IMG/VR virus record: IMGVR_UViG_3300025121_000084
Span: 1-43,305 of that record
DNA length: 43,305 nt
Origin: a virus
Direction: 5' to 3' (one strand)
Positions 60 through 14,672 of the stretch are shown one piece after another. The notes below the pieces were generated by a model. It worked only from the letters and a program-made list of their open reading frames with translations, did no database searches and was not told the origin of the DNA. The number at the start of each line of letters is the position of its first letter. Position 1 is the stretch's first letter. The translations under genes and the position numbers were made by a program.

Positions 60-893
60 CTATATATACGTGAATACATATCCATGAGTATGTGATCTTT
101 TATTTTGGCAAACCCTGATTATCATCGGCCTTGGTATTGCTAGATCATCCGATGCTTCATAGGTTGATTTATATATCTTATTATTGTTTTGACAATATAT
201 TCTCTTGTGCTCGCTGATACCCCTTATTATTGAATCACGCAACTCTTTTCTTTTTGGTATTGATTCTATTTCAGCAATCCTTTTTATTCTTAATTCTTCT
301 TTAAGCAATCTTTTATTTTCCTTATTTATCCTTTTTAGCTCCCTTTTACCCTCCTTTTGTTTCATTATTTTAATATATTCGATTGATTTTTTCCTTTTAT
401 CCCAAGCTTTTCTTGCTGCATTACTACACTTCTTTATGTACTCTGGGTCTTTTGATAGCTCAATAGTCTTTCTTCTTGCCATTTCCCTATATTTATCAGT
501 TCTTAGTAACGCATGTGTTCTTTCAAGAATACCTCTTTCTTTTTGAGCATTAACTCCAGCTTTCCCGTAAACACTCATTCTGTGCAGCATTTCAACATCC
601 TTAACCTTACCTCCACCCCCTCCACCTGCCTTGATATTATAGCCCTGTGGGGTAATTGTGTTATATTTTTTAATATATTCTATCTCTTTATCTTGTAATA
701 AAAATAAATCATCTGATTCATACAATTTTTCAAACTGAAACATTTCTATTCCGTATTTTCTTAAGGCACTATGGAAAATGCTATTTTTAGTATGACTTTT
801 ATGCTCTCTTATTCTCTGGCTCAGCGTCCTGGATGTATATCCAATATACTGTTTTCCATTTTCCCTATTTGTTGCGATATAAACTATTCCCAT
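60..893 (-). CDS. GIY-YIG homing endonuclease
   Basis: A 277-aa protein whose N-terminus carries the GIY-YIG nuclease signature: GIVYIA at residues 2-7, then YIG at about 16-18, followed by an Arg-rich helix (RTLSQRIREH). The middle is Lys/Arg-rich. The C-terminal ~45 residues (KSTYEASDDLAIPR onward, ending HGYVFTYI) look like the NUMOD1/IENR1-type DNA-binding repeat common in phage homing enzymes. Such enzymes make site-directed double-strand breaks that spread their own gene. It is free-standing, transcribed divergently from the early genes, and has its own promoter (912-940) and an AAGGAG ribosome site. Its base composition is visibly more AT-rich than the structural genes, fitting acquisition as a mobile gene. 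Family assignment is confident; the target site is unknown. Confidence 0.93.
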   Translation of the reverse strand: MGIVYIATNRENGKQYIGYTSRTLSQRIREHKSHTKNSIFHSALRKYGIEMFQFEKLYESDDLFLLQDKEIEYIKKYNTITPQGYNIKAGGGGGGKVKDVEMLHRMSVYGKAGVNAQKERGILERTHALLRTDKYREMARRKTIELSKDPEYIKKCSNAARKAWDKRKKSIEYIKIMKQKEGKRELKRINKENKRLLKEELRIKRIAEIESIPKRKELRDSIIRGISEHKRIYCQNNNKIYKSTYEASDDLAIPRPMIIRVCQNKRSHTHGYVFTYI

Positions 894-3622: not shown

Positions 3623-4203
3623 CCCCCCTCGACCTTTTCAACCGCTCCATATCCGGTGAGTGGAAAACAGCTGGGACCGATACGCAATACCGGATCGAAG
3701 TAATCCCCGACGTAGCGGGCAAAAAGACGCAGTACGTGTTTTTCCAGCCCACAGGCTCACAGGATGACTGGAAAAAGAACTTCGATATCTGGCCGATCCA
3801 CGGCGTTCATGGCGGCTATTGGAAGCGTTTTACAGAGGCTAGGGCGCAAGTTTTAGCCGAAATCGACAAGGGCATGAAAACGGTATTCGCAGGGTATTCC
3901 ATGGGTGCCGCGATTGCGCTCCTTTTTTATCTATCGACAGACGTACCCCGACGCGCTATCCTTTTTGCATGTCCCCGCGTGTTGTGGCTGGATACCAGAG
4001 GCCACGAGCGGGACAAATCCCTTGTACGTGTCTCAGTGCGTGGTGATCCAGTGACCCGGCTTCCCTTCGCGGTGCTAGGCTATCGACACATAGGCATTGA
4101 GGCCAAGATAGGGCGCAAGGTTTTCGGCTACTGGCCGAAGTATCACCAAGCGGCGGCGTATGTTGAGGCGTTGGCTGTATTATCGGATATTCATCAGGTA
4201 TAA
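3619..4203 (+). CDS. Class 3 lipase-like alpha/beta hydrolase
   Basis: A 194-aa protein. GYSMG at residues 92-96 is the GxSxG nucleophile elbow (Ser94). GDPVTRLP at 142-149 supplies the Asp (Asp143) in the form typical of class 3 lipases, and a His follows at 157 (GYRHIG). Thus Ser-Asp-His are all present in the expected order. HGVHGGYWKRF at 61-71 matches the region that precedes the elbow in this family. The family hydrolyses acyl esters such as glycerolipids; the substrate here is unknown. There is no signal peptide, but the gene is coupled by ATGA overlap to the upstream membrane protein. The start at 3619 is chosen over an upstream one (3547) that lies within the preceding gene. An early-region lipase in a phage is unusual. 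Confidence 0.82.
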   Translation: MTPLDLFNRSISGEWKTAGTDTQYRIEVIPDVAGKKTQYVFFQPTGSQDDWKKNFDIWPIHGVHGGYWKRFTEARAQVLAEIDKGMKTVFAGYSMGAAIALLFYLSTDVPRRAILFACPRVLWLDTRGHERDKSLVRVSVRGDPVTRLPFAVLGYRHIGIEAKIGRKVFGYWPKYHQAAAYVEALAVLSDIHQV

Positions 4204-4217
4204 TTTTTTATACAGGC
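4201..4217 (+). repeat. AT-box/ATACAGGC intergenic element, copy 2
   Basis: TAATTTTTTATACAGGC, a second copy of the element at 3362. It begins at the stop of the lipase-like gene and is again followed by a GGGTGG ribosome site before the next ATG. Confidence 0.5.
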
Positions 4218-4239
4218 TCTAGTTGTTAAGGGTGGCCCC

Positions 4240-6951
4240 ATGAAAAAGGTTTTCGAGGATGCCCGTGCGCGGGTGTCTCGGTCAGTCATCGAGTCAATGC
4301 TCCCTGGTGGCAAATGGGACGCCGACTCATATTGGGTATGCTCGCCCTTACGCGCCGACAAATTGCCTGGATCTTTTCATGTGGCAGACGATGGCCGATA
4401 CTTCGACTTCGCTGATAAGTCAAAAGGTGATTTTATCCACCTTATATCCGAAATGCACAAGGTTAGTCCAACCAAAGCCGCTGAATTGATAGTTAAGGCA
4501 TCAGGTGGCATTGTATCCGATTTTACCCCAGCACCCGCACAGCCCCCAAAAGCGGAAAAACCCCGCGCCGTATACCCCGTCCCTGCAGATAAAGTAAAGC
4601 TACTTAAAATACTTATCGACTCCGATTTTTCCCTTGAAAAACACGGTACACCCGTTGCCGGATGGAAGTACCACGACGAAAAGGGGCGAGTTATTTTCTG
4701 TGTCGCCCGCTTTAATAAACCGGACGGATCAAAAGACGTTATCCCCTACTATTGGGACGGCATAAAATGGCGCGAAGGCCAGCCCATGAAGGACGGTCGA
4801 CCACTGTTTAACCTCCACCATATCGCAGAGGCTACCCCGGCGACTAAAATACTCATCGTTGAGGGCGAGAAGTGCGCAAGTGTAAAAATACCCGGATGGA
4901 TACTTACAACATGGTCAAGCGGGTGTGCAAGCGTTGACAAAACCGATTTTTCACCCCTCATAGAAGCCGCCCGCCGTGGCGTGGTTTTTATCTGGCCGGA
5001 TGCTGACTATAAAAAAGACAAGAGCGAAGTATTTTTTACATGGGACAAGCAGCCCGGAATGGTGGCCGGACTTCACATAGTGCGTAAATTACCTGGGGCC
5101 GTTCTTCTTAATACGAGCAAATATGCCGAGCAAAAAGACGGCTGGGACATAGCCGACGCGATAGGCGAGGGCATAGACCCGGCGAAGTTTATAGCCGAGT
5201 GTCCTACCGTATCCCAAGAGCAGCCAGACCTTAGCGCCCCTCTTGAAGATCACGACACAGAACAGGACACGCCCGATCTCCCCCCCTCCGATTACGACTC
5301 AGACCGCCCTGAGGATATCGTAGGCCAGCCCTTCCGGTGTCTTGGCTATGATGCAGAGTCCTATCACTTTTTACAAGGCGGGCAACAGCAGGAAGTCACC
5401 ATCCGCAAGGGCGCTTTTACGACCTCGATGCTCCAAGAGCTTACAGGGTCCCTGGCATGGTGGGCTATCCAGGGCGCTGTAAATAAAAATGGCGGCATAG
5501 ACCTACCTCACGCCCAAGAGCTCATTATGGAGATGCAAGCCAAGGCAGGCCTATTCGACCCTGAATACCTCAGAGGATCGGGCGTGTGGATCGACCGTGG
5601 CGAGATAATTATAAACGATGGCGGGCAGATAATTACCCTTGACGGCCATTCCATTCCCCTTGAGGGCTATGCAGGTCAGGCCGCGTACTTGAGAAGCAAG
5701 GTCAATTTCCTGCCCATGCAGGGCGATGACTCAACAGCCGATGAGGGTAGGCGACTACAAGAGCTTTTCGACGCTCAGGGTTTCTCTAGGCCCCTTGAGA
5801 GCGTTGCGGCTCTTGGGTGGAGTCTTATAGCCCCCTTCGGCGGTATCCTCTCTTGGCGGCCTCATCTATGGCTATCCGGGCGCAAAGGCACGGGCAAGAC
5901 CTACGTCCTTGAAAACCTTGTAAAGCCGATATGTGGACCCTTCGCACATTGCGGATCTGGTAAGGACACTGAGGCAGGGATTAGGCGCACGCTCAACATG
6001 GACGCCAGGCCTGTTATCCTCGATGAAATGGAACCGAAATCACGGCCAGCCAAGGAAAACGTGTCAAAGATACTTGACCTAGCCCGCAACGCAGCCGGCG
6101 ATGGATCAGGCCGCGTTACTATGGCGTCTGGTACGGGTACACAGACCTTTTTAATCCGGTCTTGCTTTGCCTTCGCCTCTATAAATATGCCAGAAGAAGG
6201 CGCGGCCATAGCGTCCAGAATTATATCCGTGGAACTATCCCCGCCTAAAAACGAGGACAGGAAAATAGCGGAATCAAAGAGGCTCTACGGTCCAGCTATG
6301 AAAGAGCCTGCCCGATACTTGCGGCGTATTTTCCACGCCCTGCCCCGCATCATGCAGGATATAGAATATTTACGCGATACGTTGACCCCGATACTCGACG
6401 GGCGCAGGGATGCCGATCTTTGGGCTCCGATACTCTCGGCGGCATGGGCAATTCAGTCCAATGAGACAATACAGACAGCCGACGGTATGGAGTGGCTTAT
6501 GCCGCTAGTAGATGCCCGGTATAAACAGAAAGGCGAGACGGTAGAGGATGAGGATCGAGTTGTAGAACACATCCTGGCCGCGTCGATGATGACCGATGAA
6601 AAGACCTCCCGCACGATAGCTGAATTACTCAACGACTCAGCCCTGCATATATTTGACGGCCAAGAGTCCGGGCGTCTTGCTACTGAGATACTATCACGGG
6701 TAGGAATACGGCTATTCAGGCCGTCCGATCCGATAGCTGAAGGTGAAAAGAGGATAGGAATTTGCACAAGATCAGACGCCATATCAGAGCTCTTGGCCGA
6801 TACGCCCTACTCATCGGGCTATGATGCACAGATAAAACGCAATCCGATATGCCGCAATTATACGGGAGGCGGCCTACAGGTGCGATTCTCGCTAGGACGT
6901 AGGACGGCTAGACTTTTGGGGTGGGATCAGTTTGCGGAAAGGTATTTATAG
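4240..6951 (+). CDS. TOPRIM primase / P-loop helicase fusion
   Basis: A 903-aa replication protein. Residues 1-~90 resemble the N-terminal module of phage primases but lack a Cys zinc cluster. A TOPRIM domain follows, with VEGEK at 207-211 and the acidic pair D254/D256 (PDAD), consistent with primer synthesis. The C-terminal half is a P-loop ATPase of the DUF927/phage helicase kind, with GRKGTGKT at 547-554 (Walker A) and VILDEMEP at about 592-599 (Walker B, D595/E596). It should prime and unwind phage DNA at the fork. It stands alone after the AT element at 4201, with ribosome site GGGTGG, and is followed by a new promoter. Confidence 0.88.
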   Translation: MKKVFEDARARVSRSVIESMLPGGKWDADSYWVCSPLRADKLPGSFHVADDGRYFDFADKSKGDFIHLISEMHKVSPTKAAELIVKASGGIVSDFTPAPAQPPKAEKPRAVYPVPADKVKLLKILIDSDFSLEKHGTPVAGWKYHDEKGRVIFCVARFNKPDGSKDVIPYYWDGIKWREGQPMKDGRPLFNLHHIAEATPATKILIVEGEKCASVKIPGWILTTWSSGCASVDKTDFSPLIEAARRGVVFIWPDADYKKDKSEVFFTWDKQPGMVAGLHIVRKLPGAVLLNTSKYAEQKDGWDIADAIGEGIDPAKFIAECPTVSQEQPDLSAPLEDHDTEQDTPDLPPSDYDSDRPEDIVGQPFRCLGYDAESYHFLQGGQQQEVTIRKGAFTTSMLQELTGSLAWWAIQGAVNKNGGIDLPHAQELIMEMQAKAGLFDPEYLRGSGVWIDRGEIIINDGGQIITLDGHSIPLEGYAGQAAYLRSKVNFLPMQGDDSTADEGRRLQELFDAQGFSRPLESVAALGWSLIAPFGGILSWRPHLWLSGRKGTGKTYVLENLVKPICGPFAHCGSGKDTEAGIRRTLNMDARPVILDEMEPKSRPAKENVSKILDLARNAAGDGSGRVTMASGTGTQTFLIRSCFAFASINMPEEGAAIASRIISVELSPPKNEDRKIAESKRLYGPAMKEPARYLRRIFHALPRIMQDIEYLRDTLTPILDGRRDADLWAPILSAAWAIQSNETIQTADGMEWLMPLVDARYKQKGETVEDEDRVVEHILAASMMTDEKTSRTIAELLNDSALHIFDGQESGRLATEILSRVGIRLFRPSDPIAEGEKRIGICTRSDAISELLADTPYSSGYDAQIKRNPICRNYTGGGLQVRFSLGRRTARLLGWDQFAERYL

Positions 6952-9948: not shown

Positions 9949-10119
9949 ATGAAACCAGAAGAGATAAAGGCAATCAGAAAGGCTCTAGGGTTGCGGGTTG
10001 GGGAGTTTGCACAAAAGATTGGAATTAGCCCCGGACTTCTGGAAGCTCTAGAGCAAGGAAGGAGGACAGCAACACCTGAAACAGTTAATAAAATTTATGT
10101 CCTGAAGGCAAAACAATGA
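9949..10119 (+). CDS. Minimal XRE-family HTH protein
   Basis: A 56-aa protein that is essentially a single Cro/C1-type helix-turn-helix: IRKALGLRVGEFAQKIGI, then SPGLLEALEQGRRTATPETV. There is no second domain, so it may act as a small repressor or Cro-like regulator by dimerising on DNA. The ribosome site is AAGAGGTACGC. The stop overlaps the ATG of the HNH gene. Family assignment is good; its targets are unknown. Confidence 0.78.
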   Translation: MKPEEIKAIRKALGLRVGEFAQKIGISPGLLEALEQGRRTATPETVNKIYVLKAKQ

Positions 10120-10613
10120 ACGCCTTAACACAAGAAAAACAAAAATTACTCAATCAACAAATTGTTATGTCTTTGCTGTCTTATGACAAAGATACTGGTA
10201 CTTTTATCTGGATAATAAAAGGTAGATACAACCATAGGACAGGATGTGTTGCGGGATATTTGAATACAGATGGATATCAATACATAAAATATAAAGATAA
10301 AAATTTCAAAGCTCATCGACTAGCATGGCTTTATGTATATGGTGAATGGCCAAATGGTCATATTGATCATGTGAATGGAACAAGAAACGATAACAGAATA
10401 AGCAATCTAAGAGTTGTTTCATATAGGGAAAATAACCTTAATCAAAAAATGCACAGAGAGGGACGACTGCCGGGATGTTTTTATGAAAAAAGATGGAAAA
10501 GATGGCAATCAAACATACAGCTAAATGGTCAGCATTTATATTTAGGGTTATTTGATACCGAACAAGAAGCATCAAATGCGTATTTTACTTATAAAAAGGA
10601 GCATTCATTGTGA
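10116..10613 (+). CDS. HNH homing endonuclease with AP2 domain
   Basis: 165 aa. The HNH_3 core reads AHRLAWLYVYGEWPNGHIDH, then NGTRNDNRISNLRVVS, with the paired His and Asn residues of the metal finger. The C-terminal segment (GCFYEKRWKRWQSNIQLNGQ, then LGLFDTEQEASNAY) matches the AP2 DNA-binding fold found in phage HNH homing enzymes. The gene is visibly more AT-rich than its neighbours. It is nested by four-base overlaps between the XRE gene and the next gene, as expected for a free-standing mobile endonuclease. Confidence 0.92.
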   Translation: MNALTQEKQKLLNQQIVMSLLSYDKDTGTFIWIIKGRYNHRTGCVAGYLNTDGYQYIKYKDKNFKAHRLAWLYVYGEWPNGHIDHVNGTRNDNRISNLRVVSYRENNLNQKMHREGRLPGCFYEKRWKRWQSNIQLNGQHLYLGLFDTEQEASNAYFTYKKEHSL

Positions 10614-11416: not shown

Positions 11417-11893
11417 ATGTCCAGCCTACACACTACCGTCCTACGTCAAGCCCTTATGGATGCTTCCGCTATGGGGTGGCGACTCTCGATAAACTCGATA
11501 GCCGAGGGCTATATGATCCCAAAGCGGCAGATTATAAACGAGTACGACACCTCGGGCCGTAATGGTGCCCACCATATCATTGAGGTGATAGATCCTCGCT
11601 GGCAGTCTTTCGGGCTTTTCTCCCCTGGCGGATTTGACTGTCTAGGCTGGCAGACAGTTACCATAACCCCGGACATGATAGGCGAGCGCGTGGCTGTTTT
11701 TACGGCCATCGATGCCAAGACCGACGCATATAATAAGCTATCGGACAAGCAACAAAACTTCGCCCGTCTTGTGCTCGATGCTGGAGGCCGTCCCTATATC
11801 GCCCGCAAGCGCACTGACTCTGATGTTGTAGATATTTTGCCCGTCAACCGCGCTGATTTGTCCGATCCGCTAGCCGCTCCCTCAGGGGCCTAA
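11417..11893 (+). CDS. VRR-NUC domain nuclease
   Basis: 158 aa. SPGGFDCLGWQTVTITP, then GERVAVFTAIDAKT and KLSDKQQNFARLVLDAGG, form the expected order of the VRR-NUC (PD-(D/E)xK superfamily) fold: an Asp in a GxxDxxGW turn, a D-x-K on the next strand, and a Q-rich helix. These phage nucleases are often next to a superfamily 2 helicase, exactly as here, and may process replication or recombination structures. The Glu usual in the E-x-K motif is Asp here (DAK). It ends one base before the helicase ATG. Confidence 0.78.
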   Translation: MSSLHTTVLRQALMDASAMGWRLSINSIAEGYMIPKRQIINEYDTSGRNGAHHIIEVIDPRWQSFGLFSPGGFDCLGWQTVTITPDMIGERVAVFTAIDAKTDAYNKLSDKQQNFARLVLDAGGRPYIARKRTDSDVVDILPVNRADLSDPLAAPSGA

Positions 11894-11894
11894 C

Positions 11895-14387
11895 ATGGTA
11901 AAGCTACGCCCGTACCAGGATAAAATAGAGGATGAAGTCAAGGTGCACCTCCGGGCCGGTGAGAAAAAGATACTCGTAGTTGCTCCAACTGGCTCCGGAA
12001 AGACGCGCATTTTTGCTGATATCGCACAAAAGGCCACGTCGAAAACTAATAGGGTAATGATCCTTGTGCACCGTCAAGAGATAATGGAACAGACCCTCGA
12101 AAAGCTCTACGAGTTGGGCGTTGTATCCGGACAAGTGGCATCGGGTAGGCCTATTACCCGCGATAGCGTCCAGGTGGCAATGGTAGGGACACTTATCCGT
12201 AGGCTGTCCCTTGTGCGTAGGCCTGATTTGATAATATCGGATGAGTGTTTTCCTGCTGGAACTCTTATAGATGGCACAGATATTGCATGTATACAAAAAG
12301 GCGATACGGTCCGGTCTTTCAATCATTCAAAAAATTGCATAGAATACAAAAAAGTTTTAGACGTATACTCAAGGGAATATGAAGGCAGTCTATACAAAAT
12401 AACTACCTCAAACGGAATTGAAATAGTATGCACTGAAAATCACCCATTCTTTGTCAACGGTAAAGGCTATGTTTCTGCCAAGTCATTTACATTGCATGAT
12501 GCTTTGTTGTATAGTGATACACATGAAATGTATAAATTGCCAAATAGAGATTATCCCAGACCGAAAGCACCTGGATCACGATTACAAATATTGCTCGATA
12601 AAATGCAGATCGGAATACAGAAGCAAAACAATCAAGCAACTACCGAAAATTTATTGTTCAGTATGCGGGAAGGAAGCAATATACGAAAAAAGAGCTTCGC
12701 ACCTGGCAGCAATAAGACGAAAAAGTGCCTATTGTTCGGACGAATGCCGGGAGAAAGTCGCTTCAGAAAGATCATCGAAAATCATGCGCAGAACAAACCT
12801 AGCGAGAAGGGAAATATTATCGTTAAGGATGAAAGAAAAAAACCCGATGGCAATGCCTGGAATAAAAGAGAAAATGCAGGCAAAAATGAAGGGAAAAAAG
12901 TTCAAGGAGCGCGGAGGAAATGGGAAATTAACTCCGCAACAAATATCCGTTCATTCCGCGATAGGGTGGCAAATGGAATATGCCGTAAATACGAAAGATG
13001 CAAGGCCTTATTTCAAAAACATACCTTCAGCATACAAACTGGATCTTGGAAACAACACCCTGAAAATAGGAATAGAGATAGATGGGAATGGACATTTGCG
13101 GCCAATAATGAAAGAAAAGGATGCGAAAAAGGAGGCCGTATTGAATTTTCTCGGGTGGAAAGTATTGAGATTTACAAACCAGGAAGTAGATCGAAGCCTG
13201 AATGGATGCCTAGAGAAAATAAGGTCTATAATTTCCACGTAGAAGGCAATGAAAACTATTTCGCAAATGGAATATTAGTACATAATTGTCACCATAGTAT
13301 TTCCCCGACCTGGCACAAGATTTTTGACTTCTGGTCCGATGTCCCCCGCCTTGGCTTCACAGCAACCCCTGAGCGCCTTGATGGGCGCGGCCTGGGCGAG
13401 ATGTTCAACGTCATGGTTCAGGGGCCTACGATAGCGGATTTGGTTGCAGATAATTACCTAGCCCGCCCGGTGCTTTTTAGGCCACCCCATGAGATAGACG
13501 CAAAATACCACGTCAAGCGCGGTGATTTTAGCCAGGACGAGCAGGAAAAGACCATGAGCCGCAGGGCTATTGTGGGCGACGTGATCGACCATTACCGCAA
13601 GCATTTAGACCATCTGCCCGTGGTATGCTTTTGCGTCTCGGTTAGGCATTCCCACCTCATGGCTGAGCAATTTATCCAGGCAGGGTATAAAGCCGCTGTA
13701 GTCGAAGGCGGCATGCCCAAGACAGAGCGGAAGGCGGCGCTCCAAGGCCTGGCCGATGGCTCCCTTGACGTTGTATGTTCATGCGACGTGATATCCGAGG
13801 GCGTGGACGTGCCCGTCATGGCAGGAGCTATTTTGCTTCGAAGGACGGCCAGCCTTGCGCTCTACCTACAACAGGCGGGCAGGGCGTTGAGGTTATCACC
13901 CGGCAAAGATGATGCGATTATCCTCGATCATGCGGGGAATTATCACTTGCACGGCCACGTGTTAGAGGAACGCGAATGGAGCCTTGAGGCCAAGAGTCGG
14001 AAGGACAGGGGCGAAAAACCGCCATCGATTACGACTTGCCCTATCTGCTATGGAGTCTGGCCGGGTGGCGTACAAGTATGCCCCGCTTGCGGTTTTGAAT
14101 TCAAGGAGCGGGAGCCGGACGCCGGACGTGCTCGACCCTTGCGCGTGATAGAAGGCGAGCTCATCGAGGCCGGAGTGGGAGCTAGTGAGGCCCGAGACTT
14201 GGCCGCTCTGTATGTCCGGGCTATGGGGGCCGATGCCAAGACCCGGCAAAAGATGCTACTAGGGGCGGCTATGCGGGCCACTGATAAAAGAGCGGTGAAA
14301 AGTCTAGCCCGTGCGGTAGGCTATAAGGACGGATGGAGCGAATGGGCGTGGAGTTGGAGAGAGCGCAGAACCGCCGGGGCGCGGTAA
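11895..14387 (+). CDS. DEAD/DECH-box helicase interrupted by an intein
   Basis: An 830-aa precursor. The N-extein (1-117) has the LRPYQ entry, Walker A APTGSGKT at 30-37, and the first half of motif II ending IISDE. The intein (118-464) interrupts motif II; splicing joins DE to CH and restores a DECH box, giving a 483-aa helicase. The C-extein carries the helicase C-terminal domain: LGFTATP (motif III), VISEGVDVP, and QQAGRALR (motif VI). A late zinc ribbon has CPIC and CPAC. It is a superfamily 2 helicase, probably working with the VRR-NUC nuclease encoded just upstream in replication or branch processing. Splicing is required for an active enzyme. Confidence 0.92.
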   Translation: MVKLRPYQDKIEDEVKVHLRAGEKKILVVAPTGSGKTRIFADIAQKATSKTNRVMILVHRQEIMEQTLEKLYELGVVSGQVASGRPITRDSVQVAMVGTLIRRLSLVRRPDLIISDECFPAGTLIDGTDIACIQKGDTVRSFNHSKNCIEYKKVLDVYSREYEGSLYKITTSNGIEIVCTENHPFFVNGKGYVSAKSFTLHDALLYSDTHEMYKLPNRDYPRPKAPGSRLQILLDKMQIGIQKQNNQATTENLLFSMREGSNIRKKSFAPGSNKTKKCLLFGRMPGESRFRKIIENHAQNKPSEKGNIIVKDERKKPDGNAWNKRENAGKNEGKKVQGARRKWEINSATNIRSFRDRVANGICRKYERCKALFQKHTFSIQTGSWKQHPENRNRDRWEWTFAANNERKGCEKGGRIEFSRVESIEIYKPGSRSKPEWMPRENKVYNFHVEGNENYFANGILVHNCHHSISPTWHKIFDFWSDVPRLGFTATPERLDGRGLGEMFNVMVQGPTIADLVADNYLARPVLFRPPHEIDAKYHVKRGDFSQDEQEKTMSRRAIVGDVIDHYRKHLDHLPVVCFCVSVRHSHLMAEQFIQAGYKAAVVEGGMPKTERKAALQGLADGSLDVVCSCDVISEGVDVPVMAGAILLRRTASLALYLQQAGRALRLSPGKDDAIILDHAGNYHLHGHVLEEREWSLEAKSRKDRGEKPPSITTCPICYGVWPGGVQVCPACGFEFKEREPDAGRARPLRVIEGELIEAGVGASEARDLAALYVRAMGADAKTRQKMLLGAAMRATDKRAVKSLARAVGYKDGWSEWAWSWRERRTAGAR
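12246..13286 (+). mobile_element. Intein in helicase motif II
   Basis: 347 residues in the helicase frame. It starts with Cys1 (CFPAGTLIDG, block A), has block B GIEIVCTENHPFFV with the TxxH catalytic pair (T63, H66), and ends VYNFHVEGNENYFANG (block F), then ILVHN (block G, penultimate His and terminal Asn). The next extein residue is Cys. All classical self-splicing residues are therefore present. No LAGLIDADG endonuclease is found in frame. Instead the middle ~200 residues are Lys/Arg/Asn-rich without domain character, because that DNA encodes a homing endonuclease in another frame (12523-13242). The insertion more AT-rich than the exteins. Confidence 0.93.
12523..13242 (+). CDS. EDxHD/Vsr-like homing endonuclease, out of frame within intein
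   Basis: A 239-aa protein read in the +1 frame relative to the intein. The N-terminus has two C-x2-3-C pairs forming zinc modules (Cys 3/6/24/28 and 45/48/71/75). A basic NUMOD-like linker follows (MKEKNPMAMPGIKEKM). The C-terminal nuclease has E152, D174 (YKLDLGN), then IEIDGNGH (D187, H191), D200, and LNFLGWKVLRFTNQEV, the layout of the EDxHD/Vsr-like homing endonucleases first described beside split inteins. No good ribosome site precedes the ATG. Upstream in-frame starts (TTG 12451, ATG 12469) are possible but also poor. Expression may rely on coupling or frameshifting (inference). Confidence 0.85.
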   Translation: MKCINCQIEIIPDRKHLDHDYKYCSIKCRSEYRSKTIKQLPKIYCSVCGKEAIYEKRASHLAAIRRKSAYCSDECREKVASERSSKIMRRTNLARREILSLRMKEKNPMAMPGIKEKMQAKMKGKKFKERGGNGKLTPQQISVHSAIGWQMEYAVNTKDARPYFKNIPSAYKLDLGNNTLKIGIEIDGNGHLRPIMKEKDAKKEAVLNFLGWKVLRFTNQEVDRSLNGCLEKIRSIIST

Positions 14388-14388
14388 A

Positions 14389-14434
14389 TATTTTTTTATT
14401 ATGTATTGACACTGTGCGGGGGCGGGTGTATATT
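14389..14434 (+). promoter_or_regulatory. Middle promoter before the recombination genes
   Basis: TTGACA at 14406-14411, 17-bp spacer ending GGCGGGTG, TATATT at 14429-14434. An A/T tract (AAATATTTTTTTATTA) lies immediately upstream. It is the third member of the repeated promoter family and drives the exonuclease/annealase block. Confidence 0.75.
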
Positions 14435-14483
14435 GTGGATAAGCGCGGACGCGATAAGGCGTCGGCTGTAAGAGGTGGCACAC

Positions 14484-14672
14484 ATGGAACCAAAAATCAC
14501 CGTCGAAGGTACGAAAATGCTCATTGAGGTTGACCTGTCAACGCAAGGCCAGCCGTCAAAGTCCGGCAAGTCGATTATCCTTGCCAGCACATCCGGCAAC
14601 AAAAAAATCAATTTCAACGGCCAGGATGTGTATATCGGGCTGAATGTGTACAAGTACGCACAGGCCCGGTAA
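14484..14672 (+). CDS. Hypothetical small protein
   Basis: 62 aa, likely beta-rich (PKITVEGTKMLIEVDLST; KINFNGQDVYIGLNVYKY). Family not recognised. The ATG at 14484 sits five bases after AGAGGTGG, the ribosome site shared with other genes behind this promoter type. It ends directly before the exonuclease start codon, suggesting a shared transcript and perhaps a linked role. Confidence 0.65.
   Translation: MEPKITVEGTKMLIEVDLSTQGQPSKSGKSIILASTSGNKKINFNGQDVYIGLNVYKYAQAR

Follow-up and report, generated by a model that had tools for sequence, protein, structure and literature searches.

A putative homing endonuclease gene nested in the +1 frame of a predicted intein in a phage helicase

The window analyzed here is the entire 43,305-nucleotide stretch of the IMG/VR record IMGVR_UViG_3300025121_000084, a phage genome (43.3 kb) with contractile-tail genes (sheath and tape measure) and genes for the portal, the terminase, a primase-like protein and RecE/RecT-like proteins. 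The phage encodes at least three homing-type endonucleases; among its genes are one for a GIY-YIG-type homing endonuclease (PHROGs; positions 60-893, minus strand) and one for an HNH_3/AP2 homing-type endonuclease (phrog_99, 4.3e-51; positions 10116-10613, plus strand), about 1.3 kb upstream of a helicase gene. The helicase open reading frame is interrupted directly after the Walker-B 'DE' ('SDE' of motif II) and before CHH. The features of this locus are as follows.

11895-14387, plus strand: helicase ORF, SF2 with ResIII/Helicase_C; 830 aa with the intein, 483 aa without it
12246-13286, plus strand: intein, 347 aa, between DE and CHH of helicase motif II
12246-12515, plus strand: N-terminal splicing (Hint) half of the intein; model pLDDT >95, omega 0.34 in relatives, in the intein frame only
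12523-13242, plus strand, +1 frame: zinc-finger/DUF559 (EDxHD/Vsr-like) homing endonuclease, 239 aa, stop codon TAG at 13240-13242; homing and cleavage are inferred
12524-13136, plus strand: intein linker, i.e., the intein-frame reading of the nuclease body; predicted to be disordered, unconstrained in relatives save for stop avoidance
12655-12747, plus strand: nuclease cysteine cluster C45..C48..C71..C75 (zinc finger), from sequence alignment
13042-13125, plus strand, +1 frame: nuclease core residues D174, E185, D187, H191 and D200, from the alignment of relatives
13152-13180, plus strand: double-coded strand, with intein R303-VESIEIYK and nuclease G211-WKVLRFTN read from the same bases
13224-13242, plus strand: intein block F (VYNFHVE), overlapping the C-terminal helix of the nuclease
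13243-13286, plus strand: intein block G (..FANGILVHN), single-coded; the final 44 nt, past the nuclease stop

All 347 codons of the insert are open in the helicase frame, and the insert matches Pfam Intein_splicing (1.5e-16) as well as the NCBIfam profiles for N- and C-terminal intein regions, in agreement with the initial annotation, which had described an intein with an uninterrupted frame and splice blocks at both ends. The complete set of splicing residues is present, namely C1, T63xxH66, H346 N347 and C+1, with ..LVHN followed by CHH at the C-terminal junction. In the structure model of the intein, confidence is high over residues 1-90 and from about 300 to 347 (pLDDT >95 at the ends), whereas pLDDT is mostly below 50 over residues 95-293; the model matches solved inteins, so that the criterion of a Hint fold is met. 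Two further criteria, in-frame insertion into a conserved host motif and the existence of intein-free alleles, are met as well. A search of plasmids returned partial Hint matches only. By sequence criteria and by its predicted Hint fold, the insert is an intein, with splicing of the precursor being an inference.

A profile search with the 239-aa product of the +1 frame identifies DUF559 (1.4e-11), and a DUF559 match is found in all 46 family members scanned. In 50 diverse members, D174, E185, D187, H191 and D200 are invariant or near-invariant acidic or histidine residues. The earlier proposal of a complete zinc-finger/EDxHD nuclease in this frame is borne out by the DUF559 match as regards an EDxHD/Vsr-like enzyme but has to be amended for E152, which is not conserved and is replaced by Q in several relatives. 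The AlphaFold model of the nuclease (mean pLDDT 94) has I-Bth0305I, 3r3p, as its first match in PDB; the structural likeness is modest (Foldseek probability 0.98, E-value 0.018, TM-score to the target 0.54). The DUF559 protein 3hrl is also among the structural matches, and the sequence profile of the nuclease matches 3r3p with an E-value of 0.026 and 3hrl with 1.2e-12. Rows from annotated phage records were left out of the alignments behind the structure models. The pTM values of the nuclease and intein models are low (0.55 and 0.48, respectively), as is usual for multi-domain or partly disordered chains. As judged from sequence and model, the catalytic domain of the nuclease is homologous to I-Bth0305I/DUF559; that it cleaves DNA site-specifically is inferred.

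Searches with tblastn, started with the intein and with the nuclease, converge on shared sites in phages of Vibrio, Corynebacterium and Pseudomonas. There, the phage records examined annotate only the host gene (as a helicase or under an uninformative name), so that the nucleases go unannotated and the inteins would be taken for ones that lack an endonuclease. A total of 217 loci from IMG/VR, from genome contigs and from phage records, collected through their similarity to the window and to seven phages, were scanned in all three frames with separate profiles for the nuclease and for both intein ends. The nuclease profile matches 167 distinct loci, 135 of which also match both intein ends. In 135 of these 135 loci, the nuclease is in the +1 frame relative to both intein ends, i.e., the criterion of a classic full-length intein, an endonuclease in the same frame as the splicing domain, is not met. 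The intein frame is stop-free in 134 of the 135, the sole exception being L075, whose stop may reflect an error in sequencing or a copy in decay. In the subset found by the nuclease query alone, the offset is +1 in 77/77 and the intein frame is stop-free in 76/77; such a query cannot favor an open intein frame. A minority of the nuclease matches include nuclease-frame stops, which are taken as mostly terminal or outside the ORF but were not verified singly. Since the loci were gathered by similarity, more distant inteins with a nuclease in another frame would have escaped notice.

When these sequences are considered as 97 lineages (<60% nuclease identity; 21,139 codons), a single stop is observed in the intein frame compared to about 870 expected under synonymous codon shuffling; sampling of extein codon usage gives an expectation of 1,111, and the third frame has 1,504. 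In the nuclease region of the window, there are 0 stops in the intein frame against 10.7 expected and 26 in the third frame, and none of 300 shuffles of the window nuclease among synonymous positions is free of stops. These expected counts assume otherwise free codon choice. The splicing residues are retained across the lineages: C1 is present in all 89 in which it is resolved, the terminal HN in 88 of 97, C+1 in 94 and S+1 in 3. The intein directly follows 'DE' in 84 of the 89 lineages with a resolved start and DEAH or a similar motif in the rest, the hosts being varied proteins. For example, some of the same dual-coding inteins reside in what appear to be clamp-loader or other ATPases rather than helicases (L027, L039, L056, L188 and others; ..LLDEAH followed by CLTKPSQEALLK), although these host genes have not been formally assigned.

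Selection was assessed in 13 close pairs by scoring every difference in the two frames relative to the full set of possible single changes, so that the omega values are simple pairwise counts without a codon model. The extein has omega of 0.30 in the host frame and 0.98 in the +1 frame, and the N half of the intein has 0.34 in the intein frame and 0.92 in the +1 frame. Over the nuclease body, the intein frame has 1.10 (0.95-1.27) and the nuclease frame has 0.28 (0.24-0.31). In the C-terminal overlap, where divergence is less than half, both frames are constrained, with 0.38 (0.26-0.58) for the intein and 0.27 (0.16-0.45) for the nuclease, and omega is 0.07 in the part of the intein past the nuclease stop. 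This zonation indicates that most of the overlap codes for the nuclease only and that the intein frame there need only stay open. True dual coding is limited to the 3' end of the nuclease, about the last 36 codons. The true dual coding named by the initial annotation thus narrows to this segment, the intein frame elsewhere being merely stop-free. Its observation that both products are conserved around 13135-13242 is valid family-wide: shared nucleotides encode RVESIEI and GWKVLRF, and the intein motif R-V-[DE]-S-[VI]-E-[IV] and the nuclease motif G-W-x-V-L-R-F-x-N are in identical register in 92 of 97 lineages. In the window, even the TAG stop of the nuclease is built from bases of the block-F V-E codons (gTA Gaa). 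The same annotation had named stops in the intein frame of homologs, or the lack of an endonuclease match and of constraint in the +1 frame, as observations that would refute it; the stop counts, the omega of 0.28 and the DUF559 matches go the other way. The distances of intein, nuclease and extein are correlated in a Mantel test (r 0.39-0.46), in accord with shared history; this test cannot separate co-evolution from host-gene effects and is not evidence for a single origin.

Vibrio phages show three states of one helicase site: empty (234P10, L225), occupied by a 150-aa mini-intein without a nuclease (K389, K461, K453), and occupied by the full dual-coding intein (K391, 1.194.O). A further empty allele of relatives is L226. 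Extein identity is 93.6% between K391 and the empty 234P10 and 96.2% between CP-T1 and the intein-free vB_VchM-138. In nucleotide identity, the inteins exceed the exteins, with 97.4 vs 85.3% (L007/L013) and 95.8 vs 77.6% (L007/L008); this fits recent homing, although recombination without cutting is not excluded. The helicase of Vibrio phage 13VV501A (L012:3152-5653) carries a second small intein, apparently at Walker A, in addition to the mini-intein in motif II. A relative of the nuclease is encoded on its own, immediately upstream of an SF2 helicase that has no intein, in L178 (about 3977-4582) and in L062 (about 3998-4636, with a site that is less clear), possibly an ancestral or a collaborative-homing arrangement.

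Both reading frames, the universal +1 offset, selection on both products, stop avoidance, the empty, mini and full alleles and the closer similarity of inteins than of exteins can be read directly from the sequences. On this basis, it is very likely that the locus represents a mobile intein that contains, in its +1 frame, a separate gene for its homing endonuclease; splicing, internal translation, cleavage and homing are all inferred. Under this scheme, the helicase precursor would be read through the entire insert. The two intein ends would fold together as an ordinary Hint domain and splice the helicase, and the stretch between them, the nuclease gene read out of frame, would amount to no more than a long floppy loop. 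The nuclease, translated on its own from an internal start, would be a free zinc-finger DUF559/EDxHD-like enzyme that cuts intein-free alleles at the Walker-B codons between DE and CHH, whereupon repair would copy the intein in. The 3' end of its gene would run into the C-terminal splicing strands, leaving about 36 codons to specify two conserved proteins in a fixed register.

The nuclease could instead be produced by programmed +1 ribosomal frameshifting, fused to the N-extein and the N half of the intein without any internal start. The invariance of the +1 offset is what such a mechanism needs, and the window and about half of the lineages lack a Shine-Dalgarno motif: in the window, none is found upstream of the candidate starts (ATG 12523, or in-frame ATG 12469 or 12496), which leaves the start of its nuclease uncertain. 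However, a candidate ATG is available in 88 of 97 lineages, and 51 of 97 have a Shine-Dalgarno-like tetramer ahead of a candidate start, with enrichment before the first candidate ATG (34/88) relative to other-frame ATGs of the same inteins (83/720). Moreover, the last upstream stop in the nuclease frame lies a median of 8 codons (10th percentile 1) before the first ATG, so that only a tiny, unconserved gap remains for a shift. In the absence of expression data, the enrichment and the close upstream stop favor internal initiation, and frameshifting appears improbable.

Another possibility is that the insert does not splice but is tolerated as a loop of the helicase, the out-of-frame nuclease being its only selfish function. 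An out-of-frame HNH insertion of this kind has been published (PMC11855218), but here the residues C1, TxxH, HN and C+1 are retained, purifying selection acts on both Hint halves (0.34, and 0.07 past the nuclease stop), and the structure model shows a Hint fold at high confidence. Furthermore, the insert splits the catalytic Walker-B/DEAH motif, so that an unspliced product is probably dead; we consider this reading highly improbable. The notion of a +1 frame that is merely a chance ORF or the remnant of a decayed gene, with the intein alone mattering, has nothing in its favor beyond the missing expression data and is contradicted by the purifying selection on the +1 frame over a nuclease body in which the intein frame evolves neutrally, by the ubiquity of the DUF559 match and by the invariant core residues. 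It is ruled out by the stop statistics and the omegas, with barely any residual doubt. Intron-borne nucleases normally occur in any frame, which would suit a self-splicing RNA intron with a nuclease ORF and an incidentally open intein frame. The avoidance of intein-frame stops and the conservation of the intein splicing residues leave this option next to no credence; an Rfam search of 11800-14500 matched no family at E<=1, and the RNA intron was dropped.

Nesting of an endonuclease in the +1 frame of an intein is also found outside the DUF559 family. Terminase-like ORFs of the IMG/VR loci L155-L157, L169 and L172 contain inteins with a +1-frame nuclease that has an HNH core, and the terminase inteins of Gordonia phage Clown (L223) and Synechococcus phage S-EIVl (L224) contain an HNH zinc-finger endonuclease in the same relative frame. 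Three of the terminase inteins with nested HNH have the following coordinates.

L155:3361-4353: terminase intein, nuclease in the +1 frame
L169:2555-3538: terminase intein, nuclease in the +1 frame
L172:2653-3615: terminase intein, nuclease in the +1 frame

These HNH domains show distant homology to those of mycobacteriophage methylases, the setting of ShiLan (PMC11855218). The layout serves a large EDxHD-like family, whose inteins reside in Walker-B/DExH proteins, as well as the HNH nucleases of terminase inteins, and the sequence data make it probable that +1 nesting of a homing endonuclease is a general architecture of phage mobile elements rather than an accident, one that would supply a free nuclease without a separate locus while entangling it with the splicing domain. 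If so, frameshift damage to the nuclease would also break an essential host protein. A splicing domain and a nuclease, both conserved, are encoded here by one stretch of DNA and share a strand in fixed register in dozens of lineages, a natural case of gene entanglement with a visible evolutionary outcome. Because the free-standing nuclease, the mini-intein, the full intein and the empty site are all found, a testable model for the joining of an endonuclease gene and a mini-intein becomes available.

To our knowledge, inteins are generally treated as single-frame proteins that either include a nuclease domain or do not. The 'Fractured genes' study of split inteins (Dassa, 2009) reportedly places the EDxHD/Vsr family in separate genes beside split inteins, and the work of Gosselin et al. 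from 2025, 'Actinobacteriophage Inteins: ... Non-Canonical Architecture', may, judging by its title, deal with unusual intein layouts in actinophages, perhaps with terminases like the one in Gordonia phage Clown among them. A full-text literature search identified no description of a +1 nuclease nested in an intein; the founding EDxHD papers and this actinophage-intein preprint, which is highly relevant, were outside its coverage. The initial statement that the arrangement had not been described can be upheld for the searchable literature, the closest case being ShiLan (PMC11855218), and priority is not fully settled. ShiLan has an out-of-frame HNH in a phage methylase insertion without intein splicing domains and resembles the present case in that a homing-type nuclease is out of frame in a phage gene whose own frame is open (PMC11855218). 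It differs in that there is no splicing domain, the insert is probably retained in the methylase, the nuclease is of the HNH type and in the third frame, and the shared bases encode no second splicing product (PMC11855218). The criteria that define the ShiLan type, HNH and no splicing domains in the host frame, are not met here, given that the nuclease belongs to DUF559 and splicing domains are present. With I-Bth0305I (PDB 3R3P) and the EDxHD family of the 'Fractured genes' study (cited in PMC12350094), the nuclease shares the predicted fold, the DUF559/PD-(D/E)XK-like core, a zinc-finger DNA-binding arm and the association with inteins; EDxHD/Vsr enzymes elsewhere are reported as separate genes in introns, whereas this one is nested in an unsplit intein in another frame. 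In reviews, intein nucleases are in-frame fusions (PMC3943268). In bifunctional inteins, e.g., PI-SceI, the nuclease likewise lies between two Hint halves, and intein and homing endonuclease move as a unit into empty alleles, as is inferred here (PMC3943268). PI-SceI is an in-frame fusion, whereas the present nuclease is a separate +1 gene that overlaps the C-terminal splicing strands (PMC3943268). The nested layout would work like a mobile intein with its homing endonuclease, yet without the classic in-frame feature.
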